Program-made: the position numbers and the translations under genes
The notes under the pieces: model-generated
The model's input: the letters and a program-made list of their open reading frames with translations, nothing else
What the model was told of the DNA's origin: nothing
Databases searched by the model: none
In this document: one piece after another, positions 7,768 to 30,198 of the stretch
How the letters are laid out: every line of letters begins with the position of its first letter
How positions within the stretch are numbered: position 1 is the stretch's first letter
DNA from: an uncultured Spirochaetota bacterium
GTDB taxonomy: Bacteria > Spirochaetota > Spirochaetia > Treponematales > UBA12059
Direction: 5' to 3'
NCBI GenBank assembly: GCA_937873275.1
Contig: CALMRC010000073.1
Span: 1 to 36,332, forward strand
DNA length: 36,332 nucleotides

Positions 7768-9435
7768 GTGATCGTCGCCCTGGCACAGATAGACGCGGTG
7801 GTCGGGGACTTTTCCGGCAACCGCGCCCGAATCGCCCGCCTGGCCCGGGAAGCCCGGGACCGGGAGCCCCGGGTATCCCTCGTCGTCTTCCCGGAGACGG
7901 CCCTCTGCGGCTACCCGCCCATGGACCTCCTGGACCAGGAATCCTTCGCGGAGGGGAGCCTGGCCGCCCTCCGGGCCCTGCAGAAGGACCTTCCCGAGGG
8001 ACTCGCCGTGGCGGTGGGCTACGTGGACCGCAACCGTTCGGGCTCCGGGAAACCCCTGGTCAACGCGGTCGCCGTGATCCGGGACGGCCGTATCGTCTTC
8101 ACCCAGGAAAAGACCCTGCTTCCCACCTACGACGTCTTCGACGAGGCCCGGTATTTCGAGCCCGCCCGGGAGCGCCGGATCCTGGAGCTGGAAGGCGTGA
8201 GGATCGGGTTCGCCATCTGCGAGGACATCTGGTGGGAGGAGCCCGCGGTGCCCGGCAGCCGCTACCCCGTGGATCCCGTCCGGGACCTCCTGGACCTGGG
8301 ACCCGACCTGGTCGTGGTGCCCTCGGCCTCGCCCTTCCACGCGGGCAAGCAGGAAACCCGCCTACGGCTCGCCTCCAACCTGGCACGGGAGGCTTCCGCC
8401 CCGGTGCTCTACTGCAACCTCGTCGGGGCCACGGACTCCCTGGTCTTCGACGGCCGATCCTTCGCCCTGGATCCGGGGGGGGACCTGGTCGTCCAGGCGG
8501 GCTGGGAGGAGGGTCTCACCTTCGTGGACACCGGTGCTCCCGGTACCGCCGCCCGGGTCCCCGCGGACCGATGGGAGGAGACCGAGCGGGCCCTGGTTTC
8601 CGGCATCCGGGAGTACATGCGGAAATGCGGATTCCGTACAGCCCTGGTCGGGATCTCCGGGGGGATCGATTCCGCCCTGGTGGCGGCCCTGGCCGCGGAG
8701 GCGGTGGGGCCGGAGAACCTGACCCTCCTGGGCATGCCCTCCCGGTTCTCCTCGGAGGGCTCGATCTCCGATTCCCGGTACCTGGCGGACGCCCTGGGGG
8801 CGCGGATGGAGGTTCTGCCCATCGAAGGGCCCTTCTCCGCCTACCTGGACCTCTTCGAGCCCCAGTTCCGGGACCTTCCCTTCGGGCTCGCGGAGGAGAA
8901 TCTCCAGGCCCGAATCCGGGGAGCCCTCCTGATGACCTGGTCCAACAAGTTCGGCTCCCTTCTATTGACCACGGGCAACAAGAGCGAGCTGGCCTGCGGC
9001 TACTGCACCCTCTACGGGGACATGTGCGGAGCCCTGGCGCCCATCGGGGACCTCCTCAAGACCGAGGTCTACGCCCTGTCCCGGGCCCTGAACGAGCGAA
9101 GCAAGGCCGAGGGGCGGATTCCGCCCATCCCGGAGGCCACCCTCACCAAGCCCCCCAGCGCGGAGCTCCGGCCCAACCAGACGGACCAGGATTCCCTGCC
9201 CCCCTACGAAACCTTGGACGCCATCCTGGAGCTCTACATCGTCCGGAACCTCTCGGGCTCCGAGATCGTCGACCGGGGCCACGACCCGGCCCTGGTGCGG
9301 AGGGTCCTCCAGATGGTCGGCCGGGCGGAGTACAAACGCCGCCAGGCGGCCCCGGTCCTCAAGGTCTCCCCCCGGGCCTTCGGTATGGGGAGGCGCATCC
9401 CCATCGCCCGGGTCCTCCACGAGACGGACGCGTGA
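7768..9435 (+). CDS. nadE: Glutamine-dependent NAD+ synthetase
   Basis: Product of 555 residues. It amidates deamido-NAD to NAD+ with ATP and ammonia released from glutamine. The N-terminal nitrilase-like glutaminase has its triad at Glu43 (FPETALCGYPP), Lys115 (EKTLLPTYDVFDE) and Cys151 (FAICEDIWW). The C-terminal synthetase domain has the PP-loop GISGGIDSALVAAL at about 295-308. Downstream motifs GNKSELACGYCTLYGDMCG and PPSAELRPNQTDQDSLPPY are typical. I chose GTG 7768 because GAGGAGG stands 5 bases before it and the protein then begins IVALAQIDAVVGDF. The ATG at 7732 would add 12 residues without a ribosome site. The stop overlaps the next gene's GTG in GTGA, so capA is probably coupled. 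Confidence 0.93.
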   Translation: MIVALAQIDAVVGDFSGNRARIARLAREARDREPRVSLVVFPETALCGYPPMDLLDQESFAEGSLAALRALQKDLPEGLAVAVGYVDRNRSGSGKPLVNAVAVIRDGRIVFTQEKTLLPTYDVFDEARYFEPARERRILELEGVRIGFAICEDIWWEEPAVPGSRYPVDPVRDLLDLGPDLVVVPSASPFHAGKQETRLRLASNLAREASAPVLYCNLVGATDSLVFDGRSFALDPGGDLVVQAGWEEGLTFVDTGAPGTAARVPADRWEETERALVSGIREYMRKCGFRTALVGISGGIDSALVAALAAEAVGPENLTLLGMPSRFSSEGSISDSRYLADALGARMEVLPIEGPFSAYLDLFEPQFRDLPFGLAEENLQARIRGALLMTWSNKFGSLLLTTGNKSELACGYCTLYGDMCGALAPIGDLLKTEVYALSRALNERSKAEGRIPPIPEATLTKPPSAELRPNQTDQDSLPPYETLDAILELYIVRNLSGSEIVDRGHDPALVRRVLQMVGRAEYKRRQAAPVLKVSPRAFGMGRRIPIARVLHETDA

Positions 9436-10673
9436 GCCGCGGGGCGACTCACGGCAACGAAGCCCTGCGGGCTTCGTCGAGGTTTCCGGCACTTTTTTCC
9501 CCGATCGGGGTTTCCGCCGCCGAGTTCCGAGGCCTCGCTCGGGCGGGCCGGGCCGCCGCCGCGGGCCGGGGCCCGGCCGGGCCGGCCCTCCTCCTGGCGC
9601 TGCTCCTGTCCTCCTGCCAGCCCCGGTTCCCCGGCACGGGACCCGCGGAGACTCCCGACCCGGCGGAGGTTCCCGGGGTGTCCCTATCCCTGGAGGGTGC
9701 CCGGACCCCGGGGCCCGTGACCCTCCTGGCCTGCGGGGACGTCCTCCTGTCCCGGACCGTCGCGGCCCGGATCGAACGCCACGGGTACCGATGGCCCTTC
9801 CGGCACGTCCGGGACCTGGTGTCCTCCGCGGACCTGGCTTTCTGCAACCTGGAGAATCCCGCCTCCTTCGTCGGAACTCCCTATCCGGGCAAGCCCGCGG
9901 AGGTGACCTTCCGGGCGCCGCCCGGGGCCCTCTTCGGCCTGAAATGGGCGGGGTTCGACGCGGTTTCCCTGGCGAACAACCACATGAGCGATTACGGCCC
10001 GGCGGCGATCCGGGAAACCCTGGACTACCTGGACCTCCTGGGGATCGGCCGGGCCGGAGCCGGGGTCGACGAGACCTCCGCCCGGGCCCCCGCCGTCCTG
10101 GAGACCCCGGGCGGGCGGGTGGCCTTCCTGGCCTACGCGGAGGCCGGTTGGAGCGTGGTTCCCGCGGGCCCGGACCGCGCCGGGGTGGCCCCGGCGGATC
10201 CGGCCCGGATGGCCGAGGACATCGCCGCACTCCGGAGGGACCTTCGGCCGGATTACATCGTCGTCTCCGTCCATTGGGGCGAAGAACACGAGCGTCACCC
10301 CGGTCCGGCCCAGCGGGAGTTCGGGCGGGCGGCCGTCGACGCGGGGGCCCACCTGGTCCTGGGACACCATCCCCACGTCCTCCAGTCCCTGGAGCGGTAC
10401 CGGGACGGGCTTATCGTGTATTCCCTGGGCAACTTCGTATTCGACATGTCCGCGGATTCCACCTACGACACCGCGGCCCTCCGGATCACCCTGCAGGGCG
10501 CCCGGGTCCGGGCCGCGGAAATCCTCCCCCTCCGGATCGAACGCGGGGACTACGCCCCCCGGCCCGCCTCCCCGGAGGAAGCCGCCCGTATCCTTACGGG
10601 CCTCCGGGACGGCTCCCGCCTTTTCGGAACCGCCGTCGAGATAGAGGGCGCCCGGGGCCGGATCGACTTCTAG
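9432..10673 (+). CDS. CapA-family (poly-gamma-glutamate capsule type) lipoprotein
   Basis: Product of 413 residues from the GTG that overlaps the nadE stop. The PGA_cap/CapA metallophosphatase-like domain is clear: ACGDVLLSRT, FCNLENPAS, SLANNHMSDYG, VSVHWGEEHER, LGHHPHVLQ and YSLGNFVFD. CapA proteins take part in polyglutamate synthesis or act as envelope phosphoesterases; the substrate here is unknown. A hydrophobic stretch with lipobox LLLSSC lies at about residues 54-63, so the mature protein should be lipidated. Its N-region of over 50 residues is far longer than normal and contains the hairpin repeat at 9453-9483 right after the start codon. No other ATG, GTG or TTG occurs in frame between the GTG and the lipobox. 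The repeat probably arrived between the start codon and the signal sequence. Confidence 0.85.
   Translation: MSRGATHGNEALRASSRFPALFSPIGVSAAEFRGLARAGRAAAAGRGPAGPALLLALLLSSCQPRFPGTGPAETPDPAEVPGVSLSLEGARTPGPVTLLACGDVLLSRTVAARIERHGYRWPFRHVRDLVSSADLAFCNLENPASFVGTPYPGKPAEVTFRAPPGALFGLKWAGFDAVSLANNHMSDYGPAAIRETLDYLDLLGIGRAGAGVDETSARAPAVLETPGGRVAFLAYAEAGWSVVPAGPDRAGVAPADPARMAEDIAALRRDLRPDYIVVSVHWGEEHERHPGPAQREFGRAAVDAGAHLVLGHHPHVLQSLERYRDGLIVYSLGNFVFDMSADSTYDTAALRITLQGARVRAAEILPLRIERGDYAPRPASPEEAARILTGLRDGSRLFGTAVEIEGARGRIDF
9453..9483 (-). repeat. Hairpin repeat A, copy 1
   Basis: A 31-base unit whose core CGAAGCCC-TGC-GGGCTTCG is a perfect stem. Its reverse complement matches 20533-20563 at 28 of 31 bases, and the three differences are all in the loop. 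It lies inside the N-terminal coding part of the capA gene, eighteen bases after the nadE stop. Confidence 0.8.
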
Positions 10674-16593: not shown

Positions 16594-17349
16594 TCAGCGG
16601 TTCAGGGGGATCCCCAGTTCATGCGGCCGGTTCGAGATGATCCCCGCGCAGCCCAGGGACAGGAGCCTCCGGGCCTCGGCGGGGTCGTCCACGGTCCAGG
16701 CCGCCCGTTCCCGGCCGCCCGGAGGCGGAGGGGCCTGCACCAGGACCTTGTCGGGCTTGAGGTAGTCCGTCCGGGCTATCCACCGGCCCTGGCCGCGCCG
16801 CAGGTACCAGGGCTGTTCCTTGGACCGGCACCAGATGATGGCCGTGGGGATAGCCGGGGACAGAGCTTTAAAGCGCCGGAGCGCGAAGGGGTTGAAGGAG
16901 GAGACCGCGATCCTACCGGACAGCCGGGGGCTGTCCAGGAGCTTGGCCAGAGCCGCCTCCAGGCCCCGGTCCCCCGTGTCCTTGCTCTTGATCTCGATGT
17001 CCCAGTAGAGGTCCGTCCCGAACTCGTCCAATAGATCCGCGAGGAGGGGCAGCCGCTCCCCCTTGTACTCGGGGCCCTTCCAGGAGCCCGCGTCCAGGTC
17101 CCGAAGGCGCTCCCAGGGTGCGGACTCGACCTCGAGCTCTGTCCCCGTCACCCGTTTGGTAGAGTGGTCGTGGGTCACCACGAGCTCGCCGGAGGCGCAG
17201 AGGTGGACGTCCAGTTCCACGCCGGGCACGCCGAGTTTTCGGGCCAGGGCGAAGGCCGCCCGGGTGTTCTCGGGGGCCACGGAGGAGACGCCCCGGTGAG
17301 CGAACACCAGGGGCCGGGGGAAGTCCGGGAGGAGGGGGAGACGGCTCAT
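16594..17349 (-). CDS. Glycerophosphodiester phosphodiesterase
   Basis: Product of 251 residues. It hydrolyses glycerophosphodiesters to an alcohol and glycerol 3-phosphate. The GDPD signature is complete: FAHRGVSSVAPENTRAAF (catalytic His and Glu), GVELDVHLCASGELVVTHDHS (metal-binding Glu, Asp and catalytic His), and later WDIEIKSK and VSSFNPFALRRF. No signal peptide is seen, so it is probably cytoplasmic. It ends the operon with the coiled-coil and outer-membrane genes; its ATG is 3 bases after the preceding stop. Two copies of the dispersed GGGGACAGAGCTC word fall inside it. They encode GTEL in RVTGTELEV and ALSP in KALSPAI, with no change in expected protein length. Confidence 0.93.
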   Translation of the reverse strand: MSRLPLLPDFPRPLVFAHRGVSSVAPENTRAAFALARKLGVPGVELDVHLCASGELVVTHDHSTKRVTGTELEVESAPWERLRDLDAGSWKGPEYKGERLPLLADLLDEFGTDLYWDIEIKSKDTGDRGLEAALAKLLDSPRLSGRIAVSSFNPFALRRFKALSPAIPTAIIWCRSKEQPWYLRRGQGRWIARTDYLKPDKVLVQAPPPPGGRERAAWTVDDPAEARRLLSLGCAGIISNRPHELGIPLNR

Positions 17350-19178: not shown

Positions 19179-19376
19179 ACCGTCTCCTTTTTGGTGTCCG
19201 TCCCGGGGCGAGGCGTCCGGCCCGGTGCTTTCCAAGGGGCCGCGCCTCGACAATTTCCTTCAAATATACTGCAGAATCGAGCTTAACCACCGAACTCGAA
19301 AGACAAGCTCTGTCCCCAAAGGGTGGAAGATTTGCCGGGCCTTGTCAAGGCGCGCCGGGGGCGGCTATCGTACCCC
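19179..19376. promoter_or_regulatory. Divergent control region between the barrel-protein operon and mnmE
   Basis: For mnmE, TTGTCA (19342-19347), 18 bases and TATCGT (19366-19371) lead to ATG 19377 only 5 bases later; no Shine-Dalgarno is visible. For the minus strand a TATATT box lies at 19263-19268 with a weak -35. One copy of the dispersed word (AGCTCTGTCCCC, 19306-19317) lies between them, outside any gene. Confidence 0.5.
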
Positions 19377-20822
19377 ATGCCCTCCGGATACCTCCGCCTC
19401 GACGTCCCCATAGCCGCTTTAGCCACGGCCCCCGTCCCCGCCGCCCTGGCGGTGATCCGCACCTCGGGTCCCGGGGCCCCGGAGCTCGCGGCCAAGGCCT
19501 TCTCCCGGCCCGAAGCGCTTTCCCGGGCGGAAACCCATCGGGCCGTGCACGGCTTCGTGCGGGATCCCGCGACGGGCAGGGACGCGGACGAAGTCGTCGC
19601 CCTGGTCTTCCGGGCACCCTCGGGATACACGGGACAGGACGCGGTGGACTTCGTGTGCCACGGCGGACCCGCGGCCTGGGAGGGGGTCCTGGCCGCCCTG
19701 GAAAAGGCCGGGTTCGAGCGGGCCCTGCCGGGGGAGTTCACCTTCCGGGCCTTCGCGGCCGGGAAGATGGACCTGGCCGCCGCGGAGGCGGTGGACGAGC
19801 TCGTCCGGGCCCGCACGGGCGAAGCCCGGGAAGGTGCCCTGGAACGCCTGTCCGGCGGCCTGGGGCGGGAGGTCTCGGACCTGCGGGACGCGGTTCAGGA
19901 TGCCCTGGCGGAGGCGGAGGCGCGGCTGGACTACGGGGAGGACGAGCTGGCGGACGGGCCGGGCGACCTTCTCGCGGCCGTGGAGGCCGCCCGGGCCCGC
20001 GCGGAAGCCCTGGCCGCGAGCCACGCGGTGGGCCGTCTCCTGTCCGAGGGCGCCCGGGTGGCCCTGGCGGGCCCCACGAACGCCGGGAAGTCCCGTCTCT
20101 TCAACCTCTTCTTAAAGGAAGAACGTTCCATCGTTTCCGAGTCCCACGGCACCACCCGGGACTACATCGAGGCGGATCTGGACCTGGACGGGATCCCGGT
20201 GACCCTGGCCGACAGCGCGGGCCTCCGGGACGCCCCGGACCCCGTGGAGGCCGAGGGGGTCCGCCGGTCCCGCCTCCTGGCCGAGGGGTCGGACTTGGTG
20301 GTCTACCTGGTGGACGGCACCCGGGGCGCCGGGCCCGCGGACCTGGACATCCTCGAATCCCTGCCCGGGGCGGTCCGGGTGTGGAACAAGGTCGACCGTC
20401 CCGAGGCCCTGCCTGCCCCGGAGGGCTGGATTCCCTTGTCCGCGGCCACGGGGGAGGGTTTTTCGATCCTGGCCGCCGAACTGGGCGCGCGCCTCCGGGG
20501 CGCGCGGCTGCGAGGAGGTCCGTCTTCCGGAGACCTCGACGAAGCCCCCCGGGCTTCGTTGCCGCGAGTTGCTTCGCAACTCGCGCGGGGGACAGAGCTC
20601 GCCTCGGCGCCGCGCATCGCGAGCAGGCGCCAGGCCGAGTGCGCCCGCCGCGCCGCCGGGGCCCTGGCCGCGGCCCGGGATGCCCTGGTCGCGGGAGCCC
20701 ACCTGGACGCCGCGGCGGTTGACCTCCGGGAAGCCGCGGACGCCTTGGCGGAGCTCACCGGCGAGTCCGTGCCGGAATCGGTGCTGGAGATGATCTTCTC
20801 GCGTTTCTGCGTAGGTAAGTAA
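19377..20822 (+). CDS. mnmE: tRNA uridine-5-carboxymethylaminomethyl modification GTPase MnmE
   Basis: Product of 481 residues. With MnmG it makes the cmnm5 group on U34 of certain tRNAs. The N-terminal folate-binding domain (1-120) has GYTGQDAVDFVCHGG. The G domain has P-loop GPTNAGKS (232-239), HGTTRDY (258-264), DSAGLRD (279-285) and NKVD (337-340). The C-terminus ends FSRFCVGK with the conserved Cys478. It is about 27 residues longer than E. coli MnmE. The excess lies at residues 386-408, between the G domain and the C-terminal helices, and is encoded by two tandem hairpin repeats. The frame is open through the insertion and the catalytic residues remain, so the enzyme is probably functional. 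mnmG starts 3 bases after the stop. Confidence 0.95.
   Translation: MPSGYLRLDVPIAALATAPVPAALAVIRTSGPGAPELAAKAFSRPEALSRAETHRAVHGFVRDPATGRDADEVVALVFRAPSGYTGQDAVDFVCHGGPAAWEGVLAALEKAGFERALPGEFTFRAFAAGKMDLAAAEAVDELVRARTGEAREGALERLSGGLGREVSDLRDAVQDALAEAEARLDYGEDELADGPGDLLAAVEAARARAEALAASHAVGRLLSEGARVALAGPTNAGKSRLFNLFLKEERSIVSESHGTTRDYIEADLDLDGIPVTLADSAGLRDAPDPVEAEGVRRSRLLAEGSDLVVYLVDGTRGAGPADLDILESLPGAVRVWNKVDRPEALPAPEGWIPLSAATGEGFSILAAELGARLRGARLRGGPSSGDLDEAPRASLPRVASQLARGTELASAPRIASRRQAECARRAAGALAAARDALVAGAHLDAAAVDLREAADALAELTGESVPESVLEMIFSRFCVGK
20533..20600 (+). repeat. Tandem hairpin repeats A and B with GGGGACAGAGCTC tag, inside mnmE
   Basis: Repeat A (20533-20563) has the core CGAAGCCC-CCC-GGGCTTCG. 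Directly after it, repeat B has arms CGCGAGTTGC (20563-20572) and GCAACTCGCG (20576-20585), then C and GGGGGACAGAGCTC (20587-20600). The B unit shares its outer stem and all of the right-hand flank through the tag with the PrsW-gene copy, while the inner stem bases differ but still pair. That compensating change is the mark of a structured element. Confidence 0.85.
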
Positions 20823-20825
20823 TCT

Positions 20826-22706
20826 ATGGACTATGAAGCATTGGTTGTAGGCGGGGGGCACGCGGGGATCGAGGCCGCCTCGGCCCTGGCCCGGCTGGGA
20901 CACCGGACCCTCCTGGTGACCCAGAACCCCGACGCCATCGGGCGGCTCTCCTGCAATCCCGCGGTCGGGGGCTTGTCCAAAGGGAACCTGGCCCGGGAGG
21001 TGGACGCCCTGGGCGGGGAGATGGGCCTGCTGACCGACGCCTCCATGATCCAGTACCGGGTCCTGAACCGGTCCCGGGGCGCCGCGGTCCAGGCCCCCCG
21101 GGCCCAGGTGGACAAGGCCCTCTACTCGGCCCTCGCCCGGCGCCGCCTGGAGTCCCTGCCGGGCCTGGATATTCGCATGGACACGGTCAAGGATATCCTG
21201 ACCGGTCGATCCGGCACCCGGGTCGAGGGGGTCGTCACCGAGCGGGGAGATCGGATCGGGGCGGCCGCCGTGGTCCTGACCACGGGGACGTTCATGGAGG
21301 GAAGACTCTTTATCGGCGAGTGGGAGGCCCCGGGGGGCCGTCTGGGCGAGGGGGCGGCGGTCGGCCTGGGGACAGAGCTGCGCGCGAAAGGCTTCGCCGT
21401 GGGTCGGATGAAGACCGGGACCCCCGCCCGGGTCCGGGGCCGGTCCCTGGACTACGGCCGGATGGAGCGCCAGGAGGGGGAAATCCCCCGCCCCTTCTCG
21501 TTCCGGAACGACGGAGTGGACCGGCCCTCGGTCCCCTGCTGGATCACGTACACCACCGAGGCCGCCCACGCGGCCATCCGGGCGGGTCTCCCCCGCTCTC
21601 CCCTGTACGGGGGGAAGATCACCGGCCGAGGCCCCCGGTACTGCCCCTCCATCGAGGACAAGGTGGTCCGGTTCCCGGACCGGACCCGGCACCAGGTCTT
21701 CGTGGAACCCGAGGGCCTGGATACCGACGAGATGTACCTGAACGGCCTTTCGTCCTCCCTGCCCGAGGACGTCCAGGAGGCCTTCCTCCGGACCATCCCG
21801 GGCTTGGAGCGGGTCGAGATCGTCCGGCCCGCCTACGCTGTGGAGTACGACTACCTGGACCCTCTTCAGCTCTGTCCCTCGCTGGAGACCAAGCGGATCC
21901 GGGGTCTTTTCACCGCGGGTCAGACCAACGGGACGTCGGGGTACGAGGAGGCCGCCGCCCAGGGGATCTTGGCGGGGCTCAACGCTTCCCGGCGTCTGCG
22001 GGGAGAGGAGCCCCTGGTCCTTTCCCGCTCGGAGTCCTACATCGGGGTTCTGGCGGACGACCTCACGACCCTGGGCACCCGGGAGCCCTACCGGATGTTC
22101 ACCAGCCGAGCCGAGCGCCGCCTTTCCCTGCGCTGCGACACTGCGGACCGCCGGCTTACCCCTGTCGGCCGGCGGGAAGGACTGGTGGACGACGCTGCCT
22201 GGGAGCGCTTCGAGGCTCGCCGGGCGGGTATCGAGGAAGTTGCCGAGCTCCTGCGAACCCGAAAGGTCACCGCGGCTCATGCGGCGCAGGCGGAAGCTCT
22301 GTACCCGGAGCAGGCTACGGAGCGAGCTCTGTCCCCGCTGGCCCCCCACGTCGGCGAGCCCTGGGACCGGGCGGTACGGGATCCCCGGGTCTTCGACCTG
22401 GACTTGACCGCCTTCCTGCCCGAATTGTCGGCTCTGTCCCCGGACCGGGTGGAGACCGCGGTCCTGGATGCCCGCTACGAGGGATATGCGGCCCGGGAAG
22501 CCCGCCAGGCCGCCCGGCTCGGCCGTTCCGAGGACCTCCGGATTCCCGAGGGCTTCGACTACCGGACCGTGGAGGGGCTTTCCTCGGAGTCCCGGGAGAA
22601 GCTCGAGGCGGTTCGGCCCCTCACCCTGGGCCAGGCGGCCCGGATCCCGGGCATGCGGCCCGCGGACGCGGCCCTGCTCATGGTGCGGCTGTCCCGGGGC
22701 GGGTGA
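20826..22706 (+). CDS. mnmG: tRNA uridine-5-carboxymethylaminomethyl modification enzyme MnmG
   Basis: Product of 626 residues, the FAD-dependent partner of MnmE. The FAD-binding motif [12 protein letters not shown] is at residues 7-18. The family signature [65 protein letters not shown] and [20 protein letters not shown] are all present. The C-terminal helical domain ends in [14 protein letters not shown], the MnmE/tRNA-binding region. Five or so copies of the dispersed word fall in the gene: 21368 (GTEL), 21868 (QLCPS), 22295 (one mismatch, ALYP), 22324 (RALSP) and 22431 (SALSP). They do not visibly change its length. The Cys in QLCPSLETK is unusual for that position. The ribosome site is weak, so mnmG may depend on coupling to mnmE. 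Confidence 0.97.
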
Positions 22707-22742: not shown

Positions 22743-23072
22743 TCAGTCCTCAACCGCAAGGGCGATTCTCAGGGCGGCTCCGAGAAGTGCAAGCTTGGCC
22801 GGGGACAGAGCCCCGACATAATCCGAGAGTCGTTCCTTGGAAATGCTGACCAGTTCGTCGCAATGAATGGCGCATTCGTGCTTGAGACCCTCATCGGGCC
22901 CGACCGGCACCTGAGTGGAAAGGCCGTCCCGTGAAGTATAGACCGGGGCGCAGGTCACGGTAGAGAACCTGGAGTCTATCAGGATCTGACGGCTCACCAC
23001 CACAAAGACGCGGTAGTCCTTCGCATCAGTCCGGGAACCTCGATGGACCCTGTACAGTTCGCCTCGTTTCAC
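22743..23072 (-). CDS. MazF/PemK-type toxin
   Basis: Product of 109 residues. It begins [29 protein letters not shown], then [25 protein letters not shown] and [19 protein letters not shown], the order of strands and helices of the CcdB/PemK fold. MazF-type toxins are ribosome-independent endoribonucleases. Its start overlaps the stop of the antitoxin gene in ATGA (23069-23072), the usual coupling. A copy of the dispersed word falls near the C-terminus, encoding ALSP in VGALSPAKL. It converges on mnmG, 36 bases away. Confidence 0.85.
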
Positions 23073-23296
23073 ACCGGGACCTGGTAAGAAAGCACGTCCA
23101 GGGCTTCACGGTTCAGCCTCTCCGAAGACCCGTCGATCCTTACCAGTTCGTCCCGGTCCCGAGCCTCGCGCCGAAGAAGTTCCAGGTAGCGCCACAACGC
23201 CCTTTCAATGAAATCGGACCTGGTTCCCTCGCTGGTCCAGCCCCGGAGTTCCTCGAGGAGTTCTTGGGATAAGGTTATCGAGGTTTTCGTTTTCAT
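23069..23296 (-). CDS. Ribbon-helix-helix antitoxin of the MazF-type toxin
   Basis: Product of 75 residues. [36 protein letters not shown] is a ribbon-helix-helix DNA-binding domain: one strand (KTSITL) and two helices, with G-x-x-S-D-F-I at the turn. The C-terminal half (about 45-75) is charged and would wrap the toxin. Gene order antitoxin-toxin with a 4-base overlap is standard. The ATG at 23296 lies 6 bases after a TATAAT box with no ribosome site, so the message seems leaderless. Confidence 0.85.
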
Positions 23297-23302
23297 ACGG
23301 CC

Positions 23303-23331
23303 ATTATACCACCAAAGTGGTATACAGTCAA
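23303..23331 (-). promoter_or_regulatory. Autoregulated promoter of the toxin-antitoxin pair
   Basis: On the minus strand TTGACT (23326-23331), exactly 17 bases, TATAAT (23303-23308), close to consensus. A perfect palindrome with 8-base arms TATACCAC and GTGGTATA around 4 bases (23305-23324) fills the spacer and overlaps the -10 box. That is where the ribbon-helix-helix antitoxin would bind to shut off its own promoter. Confidence 0.85.
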
Positions 23332-23403
23332 ATCAAGTTTTCAATCCGTTAGGATGCTCGACCCAGAGACCGAACCTGCAGGTGAGTAGCCGGTCGCTCC
23401 CCT

Positions 23404-23691
23404 TTATGGCACGCTTCGTATCTTGTACAGCTCATCCGTCAGCCGCCGGCGCTCCTCCGCCAGATCGTACCGGTTCTGGAGGCCCAGCCAGAATTCCGGA
23501 TCGTTCCCGAAATATCGGGCCAGGCGAAGGGCCGTCTCCGCGTTGATCTTCCTCTGCCCCCGGAGGATTCCGGACACCCGGGTGGCGGGGATGCCGGCAT
23601 CCTTGGCGACGCGGTAGATGGAAATTCCCCGGGGGATCATGAACCGCTTCCGCAGGATCTCCCCGGGAGAAGGATAAAACGCTCCGGACAT
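23404..23691 (-). CDS. higA: HigA-family antitoxin, orphan
   Basis: Product of 95 residues. SPGEILRKRFMIPRGISIYRVAKDAGIPATRVSGILRGQRKI is an XRE helix-turn-helix of the HigA type, followed by TALRLARYFGNDPEFWLGLQNRYDL. Most of its residues match the HigA encoded at 23854-24141, so the two are duplicates. No toxin gene is next to it: the 162 bases upstream hold no HigB-like frame, and the next gene downstream belongs to the MazF pair. AGGAG stands 7 bases before the ATG, and a possible promoter (TTAGGG, 17 bases, CATAAT) precedes it. It may act as a free regulator or an anti-toxin for the neighbouring HigB. Confidence 0.85.
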   Translation of the reverse strand: MSGAFYPSPGEILRKRFMIPRGISIYRVAKDAGIPATRVSGILRGQRKINAETALRLARYFGNDPEFWLGLQNRYDLAEERRRLTDELYKIRSVP

Positions 23692-23853
23692 GGCGGACTC
23701 CTGGTTAATTATGGGTTTCGGCTGGAATTACCCTAAAACTGGACGGGCGGGGCGTCAAGGTGGATGGCATTTTTTTCAGCTCTGTCCCCGGGCCGGTCCC
23801 GTAACGACGAAATCCCTCGGTACTCGAAGCCCGGGGCGATCCTGAAACCCGCT
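23692..23853. other. Gap between the two higA genes
   Basis: Carries the possible promoter of the orphan higA, a T-run ATTTTTTTC (about 23769-23777) and one copy of the dispersed word (AGCTCTGTCCCC, 23778-23789). I see no remnant of a HigB toxin on either strand. Confidence 0.5.
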
Positions 23854-24141
23854 CTACGCCACGCTTCCGATCGACTTCAGTTCTTCCGCCAGCCGCTCCC
23901 GCTCTTCCCGCAGATCGTGCTCGTTCTGGATGCCCAGCCAAAAGTCCGGGGAGTTCCCGAAGTATTTTCCCAGCCGCAGGGCGGTGTCGACGGTGATCTT
24001 GCGCCGGCCGTGGAGGATTTCCGCGATCCGGGTCGCCGGGATCCGGGTTTCCTTGGCCAGCCGATAGGCGGTAATTCTATGGGGGATAAGAAACTCCTCC
24101 CGTAGGATCTCGCCGGGGGAGATGTTCGAAATCCGGTCCAT
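23854..24141 (-). CDS. higA: HigA-family antitoxin paired with HigB
   Basis: Product of 95 residues. ISPGEILREEFLIPHRITAYRLAKETRIPATRIAEILHGRRKI is the helix-turn-helix, followed by TVDTALRLGKYFGNSPDFWLGIQNEHDL. It binds and silences HigB and represses its own operon. I chose ATG 24141 because AGGAGGA lies just upstream. A longer in-frame reading from 24216 would run through the toxin gene's end. It follows higB by 8 bases, the order toxin-antitoxin typical of hig loci. Confidence 0.9.
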   Translation of the reverse strand: MDRISNISPGEILREEFLIPHRITAYRLAKETRIPATRIAEILHGRRKITVDTALRLGKYFGNSPDFWLGIQNEHDLREERERLAEELKSIGSVA

Positions 24142-24149
24142 ACTTCCTC

Positions 24150-24431
24150 CTAATGGTAATCGACGATGTGGACGTCTTGGGCGTTTCCATCCACCCATTG
24201 GAAGCAGATCCGCCATTGATCGTTGATTCGGATGCTGTATTGACCTTCCCGGTCTCCCGAAAGCCGTTCCAGCCTGTTCGCAGGCGGCATACGCAGATCC
24301 GCCAAGGATACGGACCTGTGGATCATGATCAACTTCCGAAGAGCCGTTCCTTGGATCTCCCGAGGCAGTTTTCGGGAGTACTCTTGGTTCCAGATTTTCT
24401 CTGTTTCCTTGTCTCCGAATGAGGAGATCAT
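24150..24431 (-). CDS. higB: HigB-type toxin (RelE fold)
   Basis: Product of 93 residues. MISSFGDKETEKIWNQEYSRKLP is the family start, followed by RALRKL-like helix, LADLRMPPANRLERLSGDREGQYSIRINDQWRICFQW and a terminal VDYH. The NRLE, QYSIRINDQWRICF and final D-Y-H are hallmarks of the HigB group of ribosome-dependent mRNA interferases. The start at 24431 is preceded by TACTAT 6 bases upstream and no ribosome site, so the operon is probably leaderless. Confidence 0.92.
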   Translation of the reverse strand: MISSFGDKETEKIWNQEYSRKLPREIQGTALRKLIMIHRSVSLADLRMPPANRLERLSGDREGQYSIRINDQWRICFQWVDGNAQDVHIVDYH

Positions 24432-24437
24432 GATTCC

Positions 24438-24466
24438 ATAGTAACGTGTTGCGTTGCTAACGTCAA
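24438..24466 (-). promoter_or_regulatory. Promoter of higB-higA
   Basis: On the minus strand TTGACG (24461-24466), 17 bases, TACTAT (24438-24443), then 6 bases to the ATG. The spacer and upstream bases hold repeated GTTG/GCGTTG words (about 24447-24475) that may be the HigA operator. Confidence 0.7.
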
Positions 24467-24771
24467 GCGTTGTTATGATATGATACACGGCGGCTCTGTC
24501 CCTGATGCCAGGATCCTCTCGCCATTCCTGGCCATGGCGCCCGCCGCGCGCCGAGCACACGAGCCCCCTCGGCGGCCTTACAAACCCCTCTTAGGCCCAC
24601 CGATTCCCGTTAAAACGACAAAATCAGGAAATATGTAAAACACGATGTATCGAAGGCACAGCATAGATCTGCTTTTCTAAGTTCTTTTTGTAAAATCATT
24701 TAAAAATCCATGAAAACCCTTTGAAATCCGAATTCCAACCTTTCCAAGGTTACAAAAAACTTCTTTTTTTC
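24467..24771. other. AT-rich gap upstream of the porin-like gene
   Basis: About 300 bases without a gene. The left part is GC-rich and carries a weak copy of the dispersed word (24493-24502). From about 24600 the DNA turns distinctly AT-rich, with A and T tracts (TTCTTTTTGTAAAATC, TTTAAAAATCC, ACAAAAAACTTCTTTTTTTC) and a small inverted repeat AACCTT-TCC-AAGGTT (about 24738-24752). A and T tracts directly before a near-consensus promoter can act as an UP element for RNA polymerase. I see no coding sequence. Confidence 0.5.
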
Positions 24772-25910: not shown

Positions 25911-25987
25911 TTCGTTCACTCCCGGGAGACAGTGCGTTCTTGCGGGTTCGCGCAAGCAAACCAGCCCTACCCGAGCGTATCCCCGGT

Positions 25988-26132
25988 ATGCACAAACCAA
26001 GGGAATTACAGACCGGCCTTCTCTACCACGTTACCGCCCGGGCGAACCGGAAGGAGAAGGTCCTGGAGTACAAGGGCATGAAGGATCACTTCCTTCAGGT
26101 CGTCACCCGCGACCGAAGCCTTTTCGGCTCCG
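25988..26132 (+). pseudogene. Fragment of a REP-associated tyrosine transposase (RAYT)
   Basis: From ATG 25988 the frame reads MHKPRELQTGLLYHVTARAN, then a basic stretch, then MKDHFLQVVTRD. This is the start of a RAYT/IS200-like Y1 transposase (usual form: PR.L..G..YHVT.R.N). These proteins move or mobilise REP-type hairpin repeats. Similarity stops after about 48 residues. The later HxH metal site and catalytic Tyr are missing and the frame runs into the 3' end of the next gene, so it is a dead fragment. It lies just after the porin terminator, where an insertion would be tolerated. Confidence 0.8.
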
Positions 26133-27290: not shown

Positions 27291-29261
27291 CTACCCCGCG
27301 ATCAGCTCCGCCAGCCTCTCGACCGTGAGGCCGAGATGGGCGGCCACCTTGTCCCCGGGGCCGGAGGCCCCGAAGCGGTCGATGGACAGGACGTCCTTCG
27401 GGGTCGTGGTCAGGGCGTCCCAGCCCCAGGCGGTCCCGGCCTCCACGGCCACGACCCGGGCTCCTGTGGGCATGAGCACCCTGAGGACCGCCGGATCCGA
27501 CGCGCGCAGGAGCTCCAGGCTGGGCACGGAGAGGACCCGGACGTCCCGGCCGACCGCCTTGTCCGCGGCGGCCAGGGCCAGGGGCACCTCGCTGCCCGAG
27601 GCCAGGACGACCACGTCCGGCTCGGCCTTGGAGTTGCGGACCACGTAGGCTCCGAGCTTCATCGTCTCCCGCCAGTCGGGATCGGCCTTGGCCAGGACGG
27701 GGAGGTTCTGCCGGGTCAGGGCCAGGACGGTGGGGCCGTCGGTCCGCTCCAGGGCCAGGTGCCAGGCCTCGGCGGTCTCCTCGGGGTCCGCGGGCCGGAG
27801 CACCCGGACGTTCGGGATGCAGCGCAGGGAGGCCAGGTGCTCGATGGGCTGGTGGGTCGGCCCGTCCTCGCCCACGAAGATGGAGTCGTGGGTCAGGATG
27901 TAGATCACCGGCAACTTCATCAGGGCCGCCAGGCGCAGGGCCGGGCGGAGGTAGTCCGCGAAGACCAGGAAGGTGGCACAGAAGGGGCGAAGGCCCCCGT
28001 GGAGGGCCAGTCCGTTGGACACCGCGGCCATGGCGTGCTCCCGGACCCCGTAGTGGATCATGCGGCCCGCGGGGTTGGCGCGGGAGAAGACCCCGCCCTC
28101 GGGAAGCTGGCTGGAGTTGGGGCCGGTGAGGTCCGCGGACCCTCCCACGAGGTTGGGCCAGGCGGCGGCCGCGGCGGCCAGGGCCTTGCCGGAGGCGGCC
28201 CGGGTGGCCAGGCTCTCCCCGGCGGCGAAGGTTGGGGCCGCGAAGGGGGCCGAAGCCTTGCCGGCCAGGAAGGCGTCCAGTTCCTTGGCCTTGCCGGGGT
28301 TGGCGGCCTTCCAGGCGGCGAACAGGGCGTTCCAGGCTTCCCGGGTCTTTCGGAAGGCGGTCCGGCGGCCCTCGAAATAGGAGACCGCTTCGGGGGCCAC
28401 GTAAAAGTCCGCGTCCGCGGGGACGCCCATCGCCTCCCGGGCCCGCTTGATCTCCTCGGCCCCCAGGGGCGCCCCGTGGACCTTGTGGGAGCCCTGCATC
28501 GTGGGGGCGCCCTTTCCGATCAGGCTCTTGAGGATGATGAGCTTGGGCCGCTCGAGGTCGGCCTTGGCTTCGGCGACCAAGCGGGAGACGCCCGCGAAGT
28601 CGTACATGTCCCCGGACAGGACCTTCCAGCCGTAGGCTTCGTAACGGCGGGCGACGTCCTCGGTGAACGAAAGCTCTGTCCCCCCGTCGATGGTGATCTT
28701 GTTGGAATCGTAGAACACGACGAGCTTCCCCAGGCCCAAGTGGCCCGCCAGGGAGGAGGCTTCGGCGGACACGCCCTCCTGGAGGCAGCCGTCCCCGGCC
28801 AGGGCGTAGGTCCAGTGGTCGATCACCGGGTGGGCGGGGGTGTTGAACCGGGCGGCCAGCATCCGCTCCGCCATGGCCATGCCCACCGCGACGGCGATCC
28901 CCTGACCCAGGGGGCCCGTGGTGGTCTCGACGCCCGGGCAGTGGCCGTACTCGGGATGCCCCGCGCAGGGGGAGCCGATCTGGCGGAAGGCGCGGATGTC
29001 GTCCAGGCTGACCTTGTAGCCGGACAGGTGCAGGAGGGAGTAGAGGAACATGGAGCCGTGCCCCGCGGAGAGGACGAAGCGGTCCCGGTCCAGCCAGGCG
29101 GGGTCCGAGGGGTCGTGCTTGAGGATCTCCCCGTAGAGCAGGGCGCCCAGCTCGGCGCAGCCGAGGGGAAGGCCCGGGTGGCCGGAATTGGCCTTCTGGA
29201 TGGCGTCCATGGACAGGGTCCGGACGGTCAGGGCGACTTTGGCGAGGGCTGCGGTATCCAT
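27291..29261 (-). CDS. tkt: Transketolase
   Basis: Product of 656 residues, the usual length. It moves two-carbon units between sugar phosphates in the pentose phosphate pathway using thiamine diphosphate. The motifs are complete: [35 protein letters not shown], the TPP site [38 protein letters not shown], and the central pyrimidine-binding part with [18 protein letters not shown] and [22 protein letters not shown] precedes the ATG. A copy of the dispersed word encodes GTEL in [12 protein letters not shown], which fits the normal family sequence without insertion. Confidence 0.97.
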
Positions 29262-29436: not shown

Positions 29437-30198
29437 ATGCTCGACCTCGCCTACAGCGTCCTTCTGGCCGCCCTGCCCGCCGCCGTCCTCCTGGCCTGGT
29501 TCCGGCGCCAGGATCGGGCCCGCCCCGAGCCGGTGGGCCTCCTGGGCCGGAGCGTGCTCTACGGCTTCGCGGCTACGGTGCCGGCGGCGGCCCTGGAGCT
29601 TGTCCTCCTTCGATTCGGGCCCTCGGGACCGAGGCTCTTGGCCGCCGCCTTCGACGCCTTCGCGGTGGCGGGCCTCGTGGAGGAGGGGGTCAAGTATTTC
29701 TTCGTGCGGCGATACCTCTACCGGCGCCCGGAGTTCGACGAGCGCATGGACGGCATCGTGTATGCCGCCTGCGTCTCCCTGGGCTTCGCCTTCGCGGAGA
29801 ACATCCTGTACGGCTACGCGGACCGGACGGTCCTGTTCTTCCGGGCCTTCACCGCGGTGCCCATGCACGCTGCGGTCTCGGGGATCCTGGGCTACTGGAT
29901 CGGCCGGGCCAAGATAGAAGGCGCGCGAGTCGATCCTCGACTCGCGCGGGGGACAGAGCTCGGTCGCAAACGCCTGGGAGGGACAGAGCTCGACAAGGTT
30001 GAGTCCCCGCCTCGGGCGCTCCGGGGTCTCGTGGAGGCGGTCTTCCTGCACGGGGCCTACGATTTCTTCCTGTTCACCCGCTCCGCCTGGGCCCTGATGG
30101 CCGTGCCCGTCCTGCTGGCGGCGATCCTGCGCCTGGTCTTCCTGGTAGCGGACGCCAAGCGGCGGGACCGGGAGGATAGGGCGCTCCCGGCGTTATAA
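29437..30198 (+). CDS. PrsW-family intramembrane protease
   Basis: Product of 253 residues with about seven membrane helices. The PrsW/CAAX-like glutamic protease motifs are present: EEGVKYFFVRRY (E82, E83, K86), FAFAENILYGY (Glu121), and histidines at 144 (VPMHAAVSGILGYWIG) and 205 (EAVFLHGAYDF). PrsW-type proteins cut membrane-bound anti-sigma factors or similar substrates; none is encoded next to it. Residues about 161-190, between two conserved helices, are unlike the family and come from the repeat at 29923-29991 (two GTEL units). The insert is in frame and probably sits in a loop. TAGAAT (29425-29430) lies 6 bases before the ATG without a ribosome site. Confidence 0.87.
   Translation: MLDLAYSVLLAALPAAVLLAWFRRQDRARPEPVGLLGRSVLYGFAATVPAAALELVLLRFGPSGPRLLAAAFDAFAVAGLVEEGVKYFFVRRYLYRRPEFDERMDGIVYAACVSLGFAFAENILYGYADRTVLFFRAFTAVPMHAAVSGILGYWIGRAKIEGARVDPRLARGTELGRKRLGGTELDKVESPPRALRGLVEAVFLHGAYDFFLFTRSAWALMAVPVLLAAILRLVFLVADAKRRDREDRALPAL
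29923..29991 (+). repeat. Hairpin repeat B plus two tag copies, inside the PrsW gene
   Basis: Arms GCGCGAGTCGA (29923-29933) and TCGACTCGCGC (29937-29947) form a perfect 11-bp stem with a 3-base loop. GGGGACAGAGCTC follows at 29949-29961, and a second copy, preceded by A instead of the first G, at 29980-29991. The outer stem and the whole right flank through the tag match the mnmE copy. Confidence 0.85.

Follow-up and report, generated by a model that had tools for sequence, protein, structure and literature searches.

The mnmE gene of this uncultured spirochaete encodes a tRNA uridine GTPase, and its reading frame (ATG at 19377, stop at 20822) also contains two hairpins, A and B, and the 12-letter word GGGGACAGAGCT, here called the tag, head to tail and all in frame. 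How did such a sequence come to lie in this gene, and do the hairpins and the tag belong together? We analysed the whole 36,332-nucleotide stretch of DNA, referred to as the window (Table 1), and compared the host's own genome (G000) with others, almost all of which are MAGs. The nearest named relative is Spirochaetes bacterium RA.bin110 (G001; MnmE identity 90%; good assembly), followed by Treponema sp. AS27yjCOA_177 (G002; MnmE identity 87%; a fragmented assembly of 550 contigs). Both are congeners, or sister species, of the host.

Table 1. Coordinates of the mnmE insert, the tag copies and related features in the window
Feature	Position	Strand	Basis or remark
Two-hairpin repeat, further copy	9429..9479	-	Begins at the upstream gene's stop codon; same element in G001 and G002
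Exact tag, antisense in GDPD-family gene	16856..16867	+
Exact tag, same GDPD-family gene	17135..17146	-
Exact tag, upstream of mnmE	19306..19317	-
mnmE (tRNA uridine GTPase), intact frame, insert in linker	19377..20822	+	Pfam TrmE_N, MMR_HSR1, MnmE_helical; NCBIfam TIGR00450/NF003661; alignment
Constant hairpin A of two-hairpin repeat, encodes DEAPRAS	20537..20562	+	Found at this mnmE site in G001 and G002 too
Private second hairpin B of two-hairpin repeat	20563..20585	+	Other sequence at same place in G001/G002
Tag GGGGACAGAGCT in mnmE, encodes RGTEL	20588..20599	+	Sequence matches
Exact tag in mnmG	21368..21379	+	Identical in G001 and G002
One-mismatch tag AGGGACAGAGCT in mnmG	21868..21879	-	In place: QLCPS, relatives QLYPS
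Length-variable stretch of mnmG	22295..22336	-	One-mismatch tag 22295-22306, exact tag 22325-22336
One-mismatch tag GGGGACAGAGCC in mnmG	22430..22441	-	Identical in three species
Exact tag between two HigA-like genes	23778..23789	-
Truncated RAYT remnant, about 70 N-terminal residues only	~25913..26125	+	tblastn 63% over 71 aa, E 1.8e-22, to the intact G001 homolog
Exact tag in transketolase	28672..28683	-	Identical in G001 and G002
In-frame hairpin CGCGCGAGTCGATCCTCGACTCGCGCG and tag in PrsW-family protease gene (29437-30198)	29922..29960	+

A sequence-only reading had described two tandem palindromic units in frame in mnmE, placed between the GTPase domain and the C-terminal helices without breaking the enzyme. 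Both perfect hairpins and GGGGACAGAGCT are indeed present at 20537-20599, the placement is borne out, and MnmE is otherwise intact. Its figure of about 27 extra residues exactly there is roughly true. Measured from the P-loop to the C-terminus, MnmE has 250 residues here and 254 in both congeners, against 219-231 in most family members, and the extra length of about 20-30 residues relative to most relatives falls in the segment linking the G domain to the C-terminal helices. That reading raised the possibility of an exposed loop at residues 386-408; in the AlphaFold model residues 377-409 have pLDDT below 50, and the insert is thus a predicted disordered linker. The insert is not present in MnmE of other genera, although the linker does grow by other means: in L108 it is enlarged by unrelated sequence, a tandem peptide repeat, and further MnmE proteins have enlarged it likewise, which marks the linker as a permissive place. 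Put most cautiously, a tolerant linker of MnmE holds a two-hairpin repeat of REP-like kind together with the tag of a REP-associated tyrosine transposase (RAYT).

The tag recurs throughout one part of the window. There are nine exact matches, and 15 copies with at most one mismatch where 0.36 are expected (approximately 40-fold), all of them between 16856 and 29990. The copy between the HigA-like genes lies in a toxin-antitoxin cluster (22743-24560, minus strand) consisting of a PemK/MazF-like toxin and its partner, a HigB-like toxin, and two HigA-like HTH genes, the last of which account for a 272-nt direct repeat (72% identical). Between species, the tags are kept at the DNA level. In the comparison of the own genome with G001, 35 of 49 aligned tags are identical over 12 bases, compared with 16% of nearby 12-mers (binomial p ~9e-18). 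At four-fold degenerate sites of 28 coding tags, 67 of 71 (94%) are identical, whereas the flanks retain 538 of 845 (64%; p 6e-9). Tags in coding DNA use all six coding phases on both strands, as called from substitution periodicity, and selection on the protein therefore cannot explain their conservation.

One explanation for these copies is that the tag is a mini-element, a short TIR copied by a RAYT, that transposes by insertion, with the coding copies being tolerated in-frame survivors. The copies in mnmE and in the PrsW-family gene, where a tag variant occurs once more at 29979-29990, do sit in extra residues, C182:3310 shows 6 extra bp (GGGACA) when compared with G001, and tandem arrays of tags exist beside RAYT genes. 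The mnmG copies at 21368 and 21868 behave differently. They lie in conserved, ungapped blocks with no length change against about 30 homologs, and the tag replaces codons, GLGTEL standing at 21368 where relatives have GLGTAL; these are substitutions and not insertions. Insertion alone also leaves the 94% identity at four-fold sites unexplained, given 36% divergence alongside. We consider it an unlikely origin for the tags.

The RAYT remnant in the window has no family hit itself, but its intact homolog in G001 (G001:C1:565348-565677), approximately 7 kb from mnmE in that genome, matches Pfam Y1_Tnp (E 3.6e-13) and NCBIfam REP_Tyr_transpos (81.1 bits, cut-off 80). It carries the motifs GNHFHL and YIDRNP, and it has the Y1_Tnp domain with HUH and catalytic tyrosine of a RAYT. 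RAYT proteins here are about 170-180 aa. In the available parts of the published descriptions (Di Nocera et al. 2013, PMC3733652; subclass 2.1 of PMC6006769), the TIRYT motif GGGGWSAS adjoins the gene for the transposase, and GGGGACAGAGCT fits this motif; in mostly non-subscription papers, nothing beyond GGGGWSAS was found to match the word. The exact tag stands just upstream of or at the ORF start in most of nine RAYT loci of G000 and G001, and the remaining loci have variants with one or two mismatches at the same place. Tags near the RAYT gene at G001:C1:565348 are all in one orientation, and an inverted partner was seen only in the C130/C7 pair, where it is degenerate and located upstream. 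The C-terminal HTH of subclass 2.1 was absent in the one RAYT tested (170 aa), which has Y1_Tnp only.

Tags cluster around these genes. In G001, 36 of 66 lie within 10 kb of five RAYT (Y1_Tnp) genes, where 2.7% are expected (p ~9e-39), and 61 of the 66 within 50 kb. In a de novo scan the top 10-mer reached a score of 20 or more in 23 of 27 RAYT windows and in one of 18 control windows, nearly all of the controls being drawn from G001; the sole control above this score is a RAYT neighbour with the same word. Within our own window the score is 57 for 16-31 kb and 10.8 for 1-15 kb. Across 39 genomes, having at least five tags is associated with the presence of RAYT (16/3 vs 6/14, Fisher p 0.001). 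Several observations count against the reading favored below. Word enrichment is weak or lacking in four RAYT windows (G009c, G034_3456k, G008 and G001:C7), the top words are unlike a tag in two of the 23 enriched ones (G029 and G015), and G006 and G014 have 5-6 tags with no RAYT hit. G002 has 49 exact tags and no Y1_Tnp hit in its fragmented assembly, but its tag arrays lie at contig ends, and the RAYT genes may be lost in assembly gaps. Tags around the remnant in the window show no visible decay; their dependence on the RAYT is putative.

Could the tags be functional host sites for nucleoid, segregation or regulatory binding, held by purifying selection, with RAYT genes simply embedded among them? 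Strong conservation at the DNA level, on both strands and in coding as well as intergenic DNA, would fit such sites. However, the RAYT-specific words (GGGGACAGAGCT, GGGGACAGACC, AGGGACACTCT, GGGGACAGACAC, ACCTGGCACC and others) differ by RAYT, even within one genome (G009, G034), and the tag cluster of the window coincides with a RAYT gene that has decayed here. We find this explanation quite improbable. In another genus, at L187 (G009:C82:68600-88599), ACCTGGCACC occurs 55 times around a RAYT gene, both strands counted.

The sequence-only reading had treated the hairpins and the tag as one inserted element, yet 67 of the 71 own-genome tags have no adjacent hairpin. That the mnmE hairpins are a RAYT-mobilised element of REPIN/BIME type, forming one mobile unit with the tag, is very unlikely: hairpin and tag do abut at 20563-20599 and 29922-29960 and share ACTCGCGCGGGGGACAGAGCTCG, but an adjacent palindrome accompanies only 4 of 71 tags in the own genome and 2 of 66 in G001, a background rate that speaks against a single unit, the hairpin repeat is absent from most genera carrying the tag, and no two-hairpin repeat directly flanks a RAYT gene in the loci read. 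The tag is separate from the hairpin repeat. In mnmE of G001 and G002 it lies upstream of hairpin A and not after the hairpins as in the window, and the G002 ortholog of the PrsW-family gene has the tag and lacks the hairpin. That hairpins and tag are neighbours in mnmE may in part be chance, the linker being permissive.

The hairpins have a family of their own. Hairpin A is ACGAAGCCC-CCC-GGGCTTCGT (stem 20539-20559) and hairpin B is CGCGAGTTGC-TTC-GCAACTCGCG. The window has six hairpins with an arm of at least 9 and a loop of 3-5, against a mean of 1.1 in Markov-resampled copies, and none of 60 resampled windows had two within 10 bp. Strict copies of the constant hairpin number 15 in G000, 22 in G001 and 9 in G002; genus g9 has more copies and G028 a single match, and none was found in the remaining genera searched. 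Of 64 copies read, 40 have a near-perfect palindrome after the constant hairpin (CGACGAAG..CTTCGT(C/T)GC) without a spacer; the arms of this palindrome measure 9-21 (few shorter), its loop is mostly 2-5, and its sequence varies by copy. The repeat can be called intragenic and REP-like, since this family of palindromes has members in genes, mnmE among them, as well as outside genes. It is not a CGTC REP. That family is defined by an unpaired terminal CGTC, an 8-9 bp stem starting AT, a loop of 4-5 and a CCA tail; here the stem begins AC, the loop has a length of 3, and part of CGTC would be paired. Rfam gave no match at gathering score anywhere in the window.

The constant hairpin stands at the same place in mnmE of all three species; the insertion is not a fresh one. 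The second hairpin reads CGCGAGTTGC.. in the window and CGCCAATCTCGGGGCGG.. in G001 and G002, and orthologous copies with unrelated second hairpins are also found at C182:12593 and between L127 and L172. At another orthologous second hairpin (L161, L162; window 9429-9451), the loop is TCC in G001 and GGA in G002, as if flipped. If the second hairpin were an inverted copy of target DNA, one arm should match native sequence. In G001 the distal arm does coincide with PRLAS of native MnmE, but this is no general rule, since at C81 (G002/own) the distal arm is missing and the proximal one kept. The gap between mnmE and mnmG is 3 bp in the window and approximately 450 bp in both sister species (G001:C1:571777-572232; G002:C215:3306-3752), where the start of mnmG is present in repeated copies and a two-hairpin element follows each one.

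We favor, with moderate confidence, the reading that the mnmE insert is a remodelled REP-like repeat plus the recognition word of a nearby RAYT, whose word accumulates and stays locally. A clade-specific repeat would have entered the disordered linker of MnmE in frame before the three sister species split, and would have been remodelled since, so that the second hairpin differs between species. GGGGACAGAGCT would be the recognition word of a TIRYT-like RAYT, an HUH single-strand endonuclease, whose gene probably once stood about 5 kb from mnmE and is now a truncated remnant here and intact in the sister species. Over tens of kb around each RAYT gene, on both strands and inside genes, copies of its own word would build up, often through point substitutions in codons that nearly match and not through insertion, and would then be held at the DNA level. 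Close to the gene that encodes it, the RAYT may bind or nick its word in single-stranded DNA, and the tag fields would be maintained either because sites are converted to the word again and again or because the word is selected for. More tentatively, it is possible that domesticated RAYTs convert near-matching sequence within tens of kb, including codons of essential genes, in place to their own word and hold it there, as a miniature cis-acting molecular drive.

The field resembles DNA uptake sequences (DUS/USS), short fixed words in coding DNA that occur on both strands, are conserved at orthologous sites and are thought to spread by biased conversion. The tags share the first three properties, but uptake words are genome-wide, whereas the tags keep to the surroundings of a RAYT gene and vary from one RAYT to another. 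As far as the accessible parts of the TIRYT/TIRtron descriptions go, the likeness there consists of a RAYT-type Y1 HUH transposase, the GGGGWSAS motif, and motif families that are transposase-specific and occur as singles, dimers or groups. Those parts deal with TIRs located at the gene and with moderate repeat families. In our case the word forms a field inside genes that extends over tens of kb and depends on distance, and it is conserved at synonymous sites; tags beside the gene are often in direct orientation, and the RAYT tested has no C-terminal HTH. A report of such a local, conserved, in-gene tag field was not found in the literature searched, most of it non-subscription.

The hairpin part of the insert is ordinary because in-frame REP-like inserts are already known. 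PMC3733652 tabulates REPs that lie in coding regions, frequently as dimers that code for 20-30 residues, and cites the Rickettsia palindromic elements as well; the earlier claim that palindrome insertion into such an enzyme is rare does not hold. Like these, the mnmE repeat is palindromic and in frame, in a housekeeping gene at a tolerant position, where such inserts usually add 20-30 residues. It differs in joining a constant hairpin to a private second palindrome, in being found almost only in two genera, and in that a mobilising enzyme for it was not found here. Its private second palindrome is a separate small puzzle.

While the mnmE insertion by itself is ordinary, the step beyond the sequence-only reading is that RAYT words form local fields in genes, conserved at the DNA level. 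A dense word field in the genes around a RAYT offers a direct and testable way to learn where in the cell the enzyme acts, and it suggests a transposase-linked process that shapes codons in core genes, mnmG and transketolase among them.
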